This document shows, one piece after another, positions 15,556 to 17,581 of a stretch of DNA of 64,000 bases. Source of the stretch: Mesorhizobium sp. WSM4904 (GTDB lineage: Bacteria > Pseudomonadota > Alphaproteobacteria > Rhizobiales > Rhizobiaceae); assembly GCF_029674545.1 (NCBI RefSeq), contig NZ_CP121354.1, positions 3,729,001-3,793,000 on the forward strand, given 5' to 3'. Both the position numbers and the translations under genes were made by a program. The notes under the pieces were generated by a model. It saw only the letters and a list, made by a program, of their open reading frames with translations. It had not been told where the DNA came from and did not search any database. Numbering within the stretch: the stretch's first letter is position 1; every line of letters starts with the position of its first letter.

Positions 15556-16596
15556 TCAGCTCTCGCGGAGCTTGACCAGGTCGTTGAGCAGCCCGCCCGT
15601 ACCGTTATGGACGGTCAGGCGCTCGACCTTGCCGGCGATGGCTTCGAGAGCCACCTCGGCCTGCTTCTCGGCCGAAACCACCTGGTTGAGGATTTCGCGC
15701 ATCTCGCCCGGCAGGATGACATCCTTGAGCGCGATATCGCTGACCTCGAGGCCGATCGCGGCCATGTCGGCACGGACCTTGGCCGCCGCCTCCTCGTCGA
15801 CCGTCACCTTCTTGTCGAGGATCTGGTCGAGCGTGAGCGCGCCAAGCGTCTTGCGGAAGGCGTACTGCAGGGCGCGGTAGAGGGCTTCCGAGAAGTCCTT
15901 CACCGTGCTCACCGCCGTCACCGGATCGACGACCCGGTATTCGGCGACGATGTTGACGCGGATCGTCACGCGATCCTTGGTCAGCATTTCCTGCCCGGCG
16001 ACATCAAGCGACTGCCGCTTGAGGTCGACGACCTTCACCTGGACCATGCGCCCGACGTTCCAGAAGGCGTGCACGCCCGCGACAAGCGCGCGGGTGTAGA
16101 CGCCGTCCACGAACAGCAGCCCGACCTGGCCGTCCGTGACCGGATGGAGGAACATGTGTTCCGTCTTCCGGGCCTGGCCGATCCGGCGCATCAAGGCCGG
16201 ATCGACGGCCAGATCGGCCGCCGTGTCGACGGACGTCACCTTCCACGGGCCGGCATCCGTCCACAGCACGAGTTTGCGGTCCGGAGCAAGAACGGCATGG
16301 AGGACGCCGTCGCGCTCGATCACGGCAATGTCGGCGCGCCCGGTGCGAACGACCGTGAAGTGACGCGCGGCCACATCCGGGAGCTTGTCGAACAATGCCT
16401 TCTCGTATGCCGAAACGAATTCCGGGTTCTTCAGGTCGTGCCTGGAGACTTCCAGGTTGCCGCGCCGGTTAGCGAGCCAATGTTCGCCCGGCATCAGGAC
16501 AGCCTGGATCTCGCCCTTGTAGAGGGCGATGGCACGTTCGTTTTCCTTCACGAGGACGCGCTGGCGTCCAAGTAGCTTTTCGAGAATGGTCTTCAT
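15556..16596 (-). CDS. slipin / SPFH (Band-7, stomatin-like) protein
   Basis: A 346-residue protein. A divergent N-terminal region of about 150 residues (MKTILEKLLGRQRVLVKENERAIALYKGEI) precedes the SPFH domain. That domain has KRQSLDVAGQEMLTKDRVTI and the conserved end ALTLDQILDKK...VKDVILP-type segment, followed by a coiled tail (REILNQVVSAEKQAEVALEA). There is no obvious membrane helix. The start at 16596 follows an AGGAG ribosome site; the frame stays open to 16920 without a plausible start signal. The gene lies downstream of two tRNA-like elements on the same strand, an association worth testing. Slipins scaffold membrane-associated complexes; the client is unknown. Confidence 0.85.
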   Translation of the reverse strand: MKTILEKLLGRQRVLVKENERAIALYKGEIQAVLMPGEHWLANRRGNLEVSRHDLKNPEFVSAYEKALFDKLPDVAARHFTVVRTGRADIAVIERDGVLHAVLAPDRKLVLWTDAGPWKVTSVDTAADLAVDPALMRRIGQARKTEHMFLHPVTDGQVGLLFVDGVYTRALVAGVHAFWNVGRMVQVKVVDLKRQSLDVAGQEMLTKDRVTIRVNIVAEYRVVDPVTAVSTVKDFSEALYRALQYAFRKTLGALTLDQILDKKVTVDEEAAAKVRADMAAIGLEVSDIALKDVILPGEMREILNQVVSAEKQAEVALEAIAGKVERLTVHNGTGGLLNDLVKLRES

Positions 16597-16926
16597 TGTC
16601 TTCACTCCTGTCGGGCATGGCCCCATGCGAGGCGTCACGTCATGCGTCGATCGTCCTTTCGTTTCTCGTTTCAACTCCCGGCACGAATGATCCGGAGACC
16701 GGTGGCATCGCCAGGCGGCGGGCTTTCGGGAGCGGATCGCGGGGCGGCGAAGCGGGCGCCGGAAGCCGAAGCTTCCTTGCCGGCCGCGTCGCGCCTTGAT
16801 CGTCACCGCGGGCCTGGCCGCGAGCCGACGGCGCAGGACATCGCCGTCCGGCGAGGCCGATGCCTTGCCGTCCTTGAAGTCCTCGCATTCCGGTCCCCGG
16901 ACCGTTTTGGATAACACCACCTGAAG
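16597..16926 (-). other. 330-base slipin leader without a convincing gene
   Basis: Between the tRNA-like RNA and slipin lie 330 bases of GC-rich sequence. Frames are open on both strands but composition is arginine/alanine-rich and no ribosome site supports a start, so I call no gene. If slipin is expressed from a promoter ahead of the tRNA-like elements, this would be its 5' leader. Confidence 0.5.
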
Positions 16927-16943
16927 GTGTCGGCTTATCAGGC

Positions 16944-17016
16944 CGTTGGAGAAGGATTCGAACCTTCGACAGTCAGATTATGAGTCTGATGCTCTAACCA
17001 ATTGAGCTATCCGTGT
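16944..17016 (-). tRNA. tRNA-Met(CAU)-like module with defective acceptor stem
   Basis: D-stem GCTC/GAGC with loop AATTGGTTA, anticodon stem TCAGA/TCTGA with a regular seven-base loop CTCATAA (anticodon CAU at 16982-16980), a five-base variable loop, and T-arm GAAGG-TTCGAAT-CCTTC are all canonical. The acceptor is not: ACACGGA against TCCAACG pairs at only the three inner positions, and no CCA end follows. I read it as a tRNA mimic or decayed tRNA rather than a working tRNA-Met. Confidence 0.55.
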
Positions 17017-17017
17017 C

Positions 17018-17082
17018 GTGGGTGTGGGAATCGAACCCTGCCTCCGGACCCAAATCCGGCGCTCTCCATAAGCTACACCCGC
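17018..17082 (-). tRNA. tRNA-Pro(UGG)-like degenerate module
   Basis: The acceptor arms GCGGGTG and CACCCAC pair at six of seven positions. The D-arm GCTT/GAGC has a loop of only five bases, the anticodon arm CCGGA/TCCGG encloses six bases (TTTGGG, anticodon UGG if read as Pro), and the T-arm has just three firm pairs around TTCGATT. It lies one base before the CAU module. The shortened loops argue against a working tRNA. Confidence 0.45.
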
Positions 17083-17293
17083 AAGTCCCGACACTCCAAA
17101 ACGGCGCCGTACACAACGCGGCAAAGCCGTCTGCGCGGGCGGAGGCGAAAGCTCCAACCGTTGTGCTCGCTTCGGTTTTCGTGACCGGGAGCGCGCCTTT
17201 AGACCCTGCGACGGGTTGTCGCAAGCGGCATTGTTGCGGCGGATTCGCGGCTTCTTTCGGTTGTTGCATTTCGGCAACGATTGCGTGTACCGA

Positions 17294-17307
17294 TGTACCA
17301 TGGTACA
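17294..17307. promoter_or_regulatory. perfect 14-bp palindrome over the start codon of the RHH gene
   Basis: TGTACCATGGTACA is its own reverse complement and contains the ATG at 17300. A further TGTACC lies eight bases upstream (17286-17291), giving a tandem half-site array. This is a good candidate operator for autoregulation by the ribbon-helix-helix protein that starts inside it. Confidence 0.5.
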
Positions 17308-17581
17308 AAAGGCCATGATTGTAGAACGTGTTCAGACCGGGGTTCGCCTGGAAAAGAGGTTGGTGAAGGTGCTCAAGGCGCTTGCAGAGCATCGCGACAT
17401 GAGCCTTGGCGATCTCATCGAGGGCATCGTGCTGCACGCCTTCGAAGGCCAGGCGCCGTTCTCGCCGGCAACCTTGGAAACGATTGATCAGCTGAAGCGC
17501 ATCTACGGGCTGGAGCTCGGCGCGACGGACAGCCATCGCCTCGTGGAAACGACTGGGAAAGCCGATGACGAACCATCTTGA
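17300..17581 (+). CDS. small ribbon-helix-helix-like DNA-binding protein
   Basis: A 93-residue protein. Residues about 10-40 (RVQTGVRLEKRLVKVLKALA, then MSLGDLIEGIVLH) look like the strand-helix-helix of Arc/CopG-type repressors. The ATG at 17300 lies inside a perfect palindrome; an alternative ATG lies five codons on. The gene overlaps the following SRPBCC gene by 17 bases, so the two are translationally linked. It diverges from the tRNA-like RNA and slipin. The target is unknown; autoregulation is inferred. Confidence 0.7.
   Translation: MVQKAMIVERVQTGVRLEKRLVKVLKALAEHRDMSLGDLIEGIVLHAFEGQAPFSPATLETIDQLKRIYGLELGATDSHRLVETTGKADDEPS

Follow-up and report, generated by a model that had tools for sequence, protein, structure and literature searches.

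A structured leader RNA with tandem tRNA-like modules upstream of slipin genes

Why should two tRNA-like sequences lie side by side just ahead of a slipin gene? The question arises in Mesorhizobium sp. WSM4904, within the window analyzed here, a stretch of 64,000 nt. The roles of the slipin family are, to our knowledge, mostly unknown. The initial annotation placed the whole feature at 16927..17094 and read it as a bipartite tRNA mimic closed by a stem between its two ends. These coordinates turn out to be too narrow. The feature is a structured leader of about 600 nt upstream of slipin, and the tandem tRNA-like pair is only its middle.

Layout of the leader and its tie to slipin

The leader extends on the minus strand from about 17190 to the slipin start at 16596. 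Read 5' to 3', it contains a 5' domain, two tRNA-like modules, hairpins, a 3' domain of about 210 nt and a two-codon minigene, followed by slipin itself; 21 leaders compared by eye share this layout. The slipin gene (15556..16596, minus strand) encodes an SPFH/Band-7 protein of 346 aa (PF01145, 8.4e-29), and genes for an acyl carrier protein and a ketoacyl synthase lie downstream of it. Relative to six aligned relatives, the protein has a 35-residue in-frame gap near its C-terminal end.

A promoter-like stretch, TTGCGA ... GTCTAAAGG (17196..17224, minus strand), precedes the leader, and similar stretches can be seen by eye upstream of the leaders of relatives. Because a generic sigma-70 scan gave no match at this stretch, we regard the promoter, picked out by eye, as putative. 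A gene divergent to the leader (17216-17581) weakly matches the ribbon-helix-helix family PF13467, with 24.1 bits where 25 are needed; its product could regulate the leader.

In the 5' domain (17101..17190, minus strand), the hairpin GGAG-CTTTCG-CTCC is accompanied by another that ends near GTGTACGG. It is kept in Mesorhizobium, with means of 1.2 and 1.3 steps in the first two 40-nt blocks and 3.3 in the next, and is recognizable by eye in several loci of other classes. A covariance model of this domain retained only 3 base pairs and was not used. In Rfam, tRNA is the sole family above threshold within the leader, the 5' and 3' domains giving no match that reaches it. The most conserved leader block in Mesorhizobium is the last 40 nt before slipin (16597-16636, mean 0.7 steps), where a GCATGG/CCATGC hairpin is visible by eye.

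This element goes with slipin. A DNA search of 41 genomes, 25 of them from the window's genus, found the tandem element in 13 of those 25 and, in diverged form, in a single genome from another family of the same order. Slipin (E up to 1e-40) and the RNA are both present in 12 of the 25 genus genomes and both absent from 12. In the remaining genome, G018, the RNA sits at the end of a contig and no slipin was found. Past the 3' hairpin, its leader gives way to unrelated sequence (locus L031, 11436-11464), possibly through insertion of a mobile element. Of 398 genomes searched across the phylum, 23 have slipin (E up to 1e-60).

Genome contigs were also searched with a slipin profile, and the best 80 of 99 relatives were kept (L044-L123); they come from Mesorhizobium, Roseibium, Stappia, Novosphingobium, Sphingopyxis, Oricola and others. 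A set of further leaders (L149-L165) comprises 14 from other classes and 3 that are alphaproteobacterial. With a strict parser that requires a T-arm, an anticodon arm and a D-arm together, 96 of 98 slipin leaders, those of the best 80 of 99 relatives included, proved to contain one or more modules, compared with 8 of 2011 control windows taken from these loci. By set, the counts are 62/62 for Mesorhizobium (window included), 18/19 for other alphaproteobacterial leaders and 16/17 for the further leaders; at least two modules were parsed in 51, 15 and 7 leaders of these sets, respectively, and in 3 of the 2011 controls. Two leaders cut by contig ends (L050 and L147) are left out of the module, loop and structure counts and kept in the minigene count, and loci L001-L043 and L124-L146, which partly overlap the counted sets, are uncounted. 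Alignment A6 has 27 rows; 12 loci gave no anchor for it, and two further anchors were corrected by hand. One leader from a genome of another class (L161) has three tRNA-like modules in a row.

The tRNA-like modules, the 3' structures and the minigene

The two adjacent tRNA-like modules of the initial annotation are real. On the minus strand, the Rfam tRNA model (RF00005) matches module 2 at 16948-17012 with 57.6 bits (E 8.3e-10) and module 1 (17014..17082) at 17017-17082 with 41.8 bits (E 1.8e-5). The sole ARAGORN call is module 1 (17015-17083), with an anticodon that is not assignable; neither ARAGORN nor Rfam reports a tmRNA in the window. By eye, module 1 has six of seven acceptor pairs (GCGGGTG/CACCCAC, one C-A mismatch), D- and anticodon arms, and a T-stem of just 3 pairs, whereas module 2 has D-, anticodon and T-arms and a 3-bp acceptor remnant. 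The poor acceptor pairing first ascribed to both modules is accordingly a property of module 2 only. Similarly, one of the two proposed anticodons, CAU, sits in a 7-nt loop, but the other, UGG, is no proper anticodon because it falls in a loop of 6 nt (17049-17054). The lack of CCA after either module, also noted at the outset, is correct for the window and does not extend to relatives: CCA follows module 1 in 65 of 80 alphaproteobacterial rows, and where the window has GACA most relatives have NCCA.

These 80 rows are the window and 79 of the loci L044-L123 (without L050), and the statistics below describe that set. The arms of both modules and the 3' hairpin are paired in 95.8% of cells. They contain 29 double-changed pairs, compared with 14.2 after shuffling (0 of 500), where the shuffles ignore kinship. 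Sliding the structure along the alignment leaves at most 51% paired, a control flattered because the module structure had been read from member sequences. As an RNA, the leader is conserved and covarying, has several domains and carries two tRNA-like modules.

Could the modules simply be two decaying tRNA genes, or an ordinary tRNA operon that happens to precede slipin? Rfam scores both as tRNA, and ARAGORN agrees on module 1. However, neither combines a 7-bp acceptor with a 7-nt loop carrying U33, as module 1 has the short loop and module 2 the short acceptor. The module 1 loop is short in 66 of 80 rows (6 nt in 51, 5 nt in 15) and has 7 nt in the other 14, and U33 is present in 71 of 87 seven-nt module 2 loops, having been lost in 16. 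All 43 host tRNAs read from the window genome, in contrast, encode both U33 and CCA. The 5' strand of module 2 also overlaps the module 1 CCA in the alignment of 80 rows, inspected by eye, and the module 2 stems are fixed in 62 species while its loops change. An ordinary tRNA pair was rejected on the changing anticodons, the module 1 loop sizes and the loss of U33, and we regard it as highly improbable. On this point the earlier view, that these are tRNA mimics and not two ordinary tRNAs, stands.

The proposed 7-bp stem between the ends fares differently. Its flanks, GTGTCGG (17094-17088) and CCGACAC (16933-16927), are exact complements in the window, as had been claimed. Over the 80 rows, 70.6% of its cells are paired, compared with 65.1 in shuffles; the inner four pairs hold at 83%, but the outer three fall to 53%. 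The stem exceeds slid controls, and it exceeds shuffles in percentage paired, covariation score and cells with double changes (31 versus 18.2), yet its 6 double-changed pairs (5.6 shuffled) and 14 further pair types (14.4 shuffled) match the shuffle level. Counted as double-changed pairs, compensatory change in relatives, suggested at the outset as a check on the stem, is in excess for the modules with the 3' hairpin and not for the stem. A local 3' hairpin, CGGC-CTGATAA-GCCG (16931..16945, minus strand), uses the 3' strand of the proposed stem and competes with it. It is 81.9% paired, with double changes in four of five pairs (80 rows). Its columns 221-239 covary (UA 50, CG 18, other 10), and column 30, the supposed closing-stem partner, is mostly U (UA 52, UG 17, CG 2, other 9). 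The 7-bp stem does not hold up as a conserved feature, and a bipartite tRNA mimic closed by it is very hard to credit. Because the inner four pairs are so often kept, there is room for a switch between the local hairpin and the closing stem, which the sequences make possible.

Next to this hairpin, a second small one (CACC/GGTG, 16918..16929, minus strand) was found by RNAalifold, with compensatory changes in pairs 252-267 to 255-264; some rows lack it (e.g., L106 and L108). The 3' structured domain follows (16691..16901, minus strand), closed by a long-range helix of 12 bp between TCCGGGGACCGG (16890-16901) and CCGGTCTCCGGA (16691-16702). Its strands are TCCGGGGACTGG/CCAGTCCCCGGA in 19 leaders and CCGG versions in 16 and 14. 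Other genera have other sequences, with the strands changing in step, and the helix is weak in L105, L107 and L121; the search behind these counts had no shuffled control, and a few Mesorhizobium leaders had a different best pair. RNAalifold proposes 70 pairs for the 3' region, with 82.8% paired compared with 71.2% shuffled and 41 double-changed pairs compared with 31.3 (0 of 500), in an alignment of 21 of 26 prepared rows. L060, L087, L099, L105 and L107 were omitted from it for brevity, L105 and L107 after their weak helix match was known, and L121, also weak, was never included.

Most alphaproteobacterial leaders also carry a two-codon minigene before slipin. In the window it reads ATG-ACG-TGA (16635..16643, minus strand), preceded by a Shine-Dalgarno-like GAAAGGA (16654..16660, minus strand). 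Within -75 to -15 relative to slipin, a Shine-Dalgarno-like stretch followed by ATG or GTG, one sense codon and a stop occurs in 62 of 63 Mesorhizobium leaders, 18 of 20 other alphaproteobacterial leaders and 1 of the 17 further leaders (L159, alphaproteobacterial); even without the Shine-Dalgarno condition, the motif appears in only 4 of 729 background windows. No minigene was found in the 14 loci outside the class or in two of the three further alphaproteobacterial loci. Start and stop are almost fixed (steps of 0, 1, 0 for ATG and 0, 0, 0 for TGA), and the sense codon varies (1, 7, 10). In Mesorhizobium it is mostly ACG (38), ACT (12) or AGT (9); elsewhere CCT, ACG, TCT and others are used.

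These features invite a purely regulatory reading, in which a processed tRNA-like domain (through RNase P, modification or cleavage) would set slipin translation in cis. It would act by way of the 3' domain and the minigene, with the 3' GCCRAC switching between the local hairpin and the upstream GTYGG. The fixed start and stop around a variable sense codon agree with such a sensor, as does the retention of the inner closing-stem pairs, and a two-codon mini-ORF acts in cis on txe (PMC8708949). A pure cis sensor has no need of a changing anticodon, however, and the 14 loci outside the class manage without a minigene. We consider this reading unlikely.

Rapid turnover of the anticodon loops

In the modules the stems remain those of a tRNA. 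The anticodon loops change very rapidly and nevertheless stay close to the loops of real tRNAs. In module 2 the loop is CTCATAA in the window (16978..16984, minus strand; anticodon CAT, 16980-16982) and is hypervariable by Fitch steps. On the slipin tree, none of the ten bases in the module 2 anticodon stem changes among 62 Mesorhizobium leaders, and the seven loop columns take 15, 8, 22, 22, 9, 7 and 5 steps. When the tree is built from the ketoacyl synthase gene downstream, the loop columns take 15, 8, 21, 20, 10, 7 and 5. The 21 and 20 steps of positions 34 and 35 on that tree can be set against slipin third codon positions, which average 4.46 steps (n = 378) and reach 20 in only 2 of 378, bearing in mind that step counts take gaps as states and that third codon positions are not strictly neutral. 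Some D-loop columns, with up to 16 steps, and one T-loop column, with 20, are fast as well.

Nine anticodons occur among 61 seven-nt Mesorhizobium loops: CAT in 22, GTT in 18, TAG in 6, TGT in 5, TTT and GAG in 3 each, ACG in 2, and GAT and TAT once each. The anticodon is therefore not constant even among close relatives. It has changed at least 27 times on the tree of these 61 leaders, only slightly fewer than with shuffled labels (mean 33.7, minimum 29 in 500). The loop differs in 6 of the 14 leader pairs whose slipin genes are at least 97% identical, the closest such pair being 99.0% identical.

Despite this rate, the loops do not wander far from tRNA. The parser recovered a module 2 anticodon arm in 92 of 98 leaders (none in L104, L105, L109, L111, L152 and L165), five of the 92 loops not being 7 nt long. 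The parsed leaders yield 33 distinct seven-nt loops, 26 of which differ at no more than one position from some tRNA loop among the 43 read from the window's genome, compared with 18.2 after column shuffling (p 0.0005). Exact matches number 7 compared with 4.0 expected (p 0.07), which is not clearly above chance.

What could drive such change? Constraint on the loop may have relaxed, the site may be a mutational hot spot, or sequence may be exchanged with tRNA genes. Simple drift predicts neither the rate of the loops nor their likeness to tRNA, and exchange with tRNA genes might give both. Both are also predicted if the modules act as bait for nucleases that attack the anticodon loops of tRNAs, such as toxins, colicins and phage-triggered anticodon nucleases. 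Each species would display the loop of whichever tRNA is attacked, and the loops would therefore diversify. On being made or cut, the bait RNA may absorb the nuclease, signal damage, or both. Membrane slipin oligomers would hold the RNA, and RtcB, KptA or a nucleotidyltransferase, where present, would act on its ends. Through the minigene, translation of slipin may be coupled to ribosomes that initiate and terminate within two codons, and slipin output would therefore depend on the state of the leader. This mechanism of a tRNA-mimicking bait is our inference from sequence, and the step from bait to slipin, with the part given to the minigene, is likewise conjectural. As a whole we give about an even chance to the statement that the element is the leader of the kind of slipin found elsewhere in Rtc loci and that its modules are anticodon-nuclease bait.

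A more specific version deserves a tentative mention and is, in our judgment, possible without being probable. Here the bait would be genetically encoded and interchangeable: its loops would change in an arms race with the nucleases that cut anticodons, much as receptor loops of immune proteins diversify, and cutting or occupation would be read out in cis through the minigene, raising the membrane scaffold. If this version is true, RNA damage would be sensed even in bacteria that have neither RtcR nor RtcB.

RNA-repair neighborhoods and relation to known systems

RtcB is found in all 14 loci retrieved from outside the class, with RtcR in 7 and RtcA in 6 of them (tblastn, 99 loci); in L153 and L165 RtcB lies upstream of slipin. 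Among the best 80 of 99 relatives, tblastn found no RtcB, RtcR, RtcA or KptA in L044-L103, and KptA/Tpt1 beside slipin in 4 of the 20 loci L104-L123. Neighbor calls were checked by Pfam in six examples. In these four loci (L104, L107, L109 and L111; three Roseibium, one Stappia) the gene for KptA/Tpt1, an RNA 2'-phosphotransferase whose role in bacteria is, as far as we know, unclear, comes after slipin. The window genome has KptA elsewhere and no RtcB, and because RtcB is absent we do not term its locus an RNA-repair operon.

Sigma-54 sites scoring 11/12 are found at five loci outside the class (L152, L160, L162, L163 and L164) and in E. coli (L210) and Citrobacter (L211), compared with none of 796 control windows at 11 and 7 at 10. 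The best score among 54 Mesorhizobium leaders is 9/12, and with no RtcR in L044-L103 these leaders do not look like part of an RtcR regulon. A nucleotidyltransferase gene comes after slipin in both E. coli and Citrobacter, and Citrobacter also has rtcR annotated before slipin. ARAGORN finds no module in either leader; by eye, a T-arm-like half seems to remain. At least 80% of the query is present in 1621 of 5426 E. coli genomes.

Nuclease bait would fit RNA-repair neighborhoods, in which RtcR answers tRNA fragments: according to Hughes 2020 (PMC7790460), 5' tRNA fragments whose ends carry a cyclic phosphate activate RtcR. Several observations count against the bait. Besides the unremarkable number of exact loop matches, the anticodon loop appears unneeded in E. 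coli and Citrobacter, since ARAGORN sees no module there. Inside the genus, neither repair gene is associated with the element: of 15 carriers, 3 have RtcB and 2 have KptA; of 12 non-carriers, 3 have RtcB and 3 have KptA; and 6 further carriers have RtcB in one case and KptA in none. Bait alone does not require the fast D-loop and T-loop columns. The wider scheme also has to accommodate the absence of the minigene outside the class and two RtcR loci, L161 and L165, in which the scan found no sigma-54 site. For YrlA, Hughes 2020 (PMC7790460) suggests that the tRNA-like domain may be a competitive inhibitor of the nuclease, which speaks for bait, and detected no YrlA fragments, which counts against it.

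The leader might instead be a scaffold. Excised or read through, it would play for slipin the structural part that Y RNA plays for Ro60, with modules serving in folding, modification or docking and an anticodon loop free to drift. Its coupling to slipin speaks for this, as do a covarying 3' domain far bigger than bait requires and the E. coli slipin, whose leader lacks a module visible to ARAGORN; Burroughs and Aravind are said to have proposed something of the kind in 2016. Drift, on the other hand, leaves unexplained both the loops that stay near tRNA (26 of 33) and rates above nearly all third codon positions. We take the scaffold to be a possibility that falls short of likely. The nuclease bait would account for these last two observations, and it would tie slipin to tRNA damage, adding a conserved two-codon minigene as a possible regulatory device. 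With its tRNA body kept and its loop changed between close species, the leader may be a readable record of the tRNAs under attack and, in soil symbionts that are harmless, a test object for decoys of anticodon nucleases. It bears on what RNA-repair loci repair and defend against.

How does the leader relate to systems already described? Among the papers listed on slipin/SPFH, Rtc and RNA repair, no title or abstract opening describes it. The initial annotation had likened it to Y RNAs. That idea is right in spirit, because relatives outside the class sit with RtcB and often with RtcR and RtcA, but membership was rejected, the YrlA model (RF02553) scoring 20 bits against a threshold of 69. The YrlA/YrlB RNAs of rsr-yrlBA-rtcBA operons share with the leader a tRNA-mimicking RNA in an RtcR/RtcB neighborhood. 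They differ from the window's leader, which has slipin downstream and two modules and falls below that threshold. The RtcR-RtcBA operon is approached most closely in 7 loci outside the class where rtcR, slipin and rtcB occur together within the stretch retrieved, 5 of them with an 11/12 sigma-54 site; the missing RtcB of the window genome and the 9/12 ceiling of Mesorhizobium leaders set the present locus apart. Elsewhere, PaFlo8 of P. aeruginosa is located in an rtc locus (PMC13086221), and in Anabaena loss of TrcR raises both the slipin alr0740 and rtcB (PMC10272220). The axe-txe minigene is likewise a two-codon mini-ORF upstream of a gene, acting in cis on its expression (PMC8708949), whereas the one described here is kept in most alphaproteobacterial leaders, has a variable sense codon and stands behind a large structured RNA. 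tmRNA also unites a tRNA-like part with a very short reading frame in one RNA; in the leader, unlike in tmRNA, the minigene lies far 3', beside slipin, and the element does not end in the module CCA.

The closest known relative comes from an RNA-repair context, in which Burroughs and Aravind (2016) reportedly described SPFH/Band-7 modules with "a novel tRNA-like molecule". In that system, RNA-repair loci reportedly pair a Band-7/slipin protein with its own tRNA-like noncoding RNA; the leader likewise has an adjacent slipin gene (PF01145) and a tRNA-like RNA supported by RF00005 matches and covariation. We file it as a variant of this Band-7-linked tRNA-like RNA. The present leaders document tandem modules with fast loops, 5' and 3' domains, a minigene, and carriers that have no RtcB.
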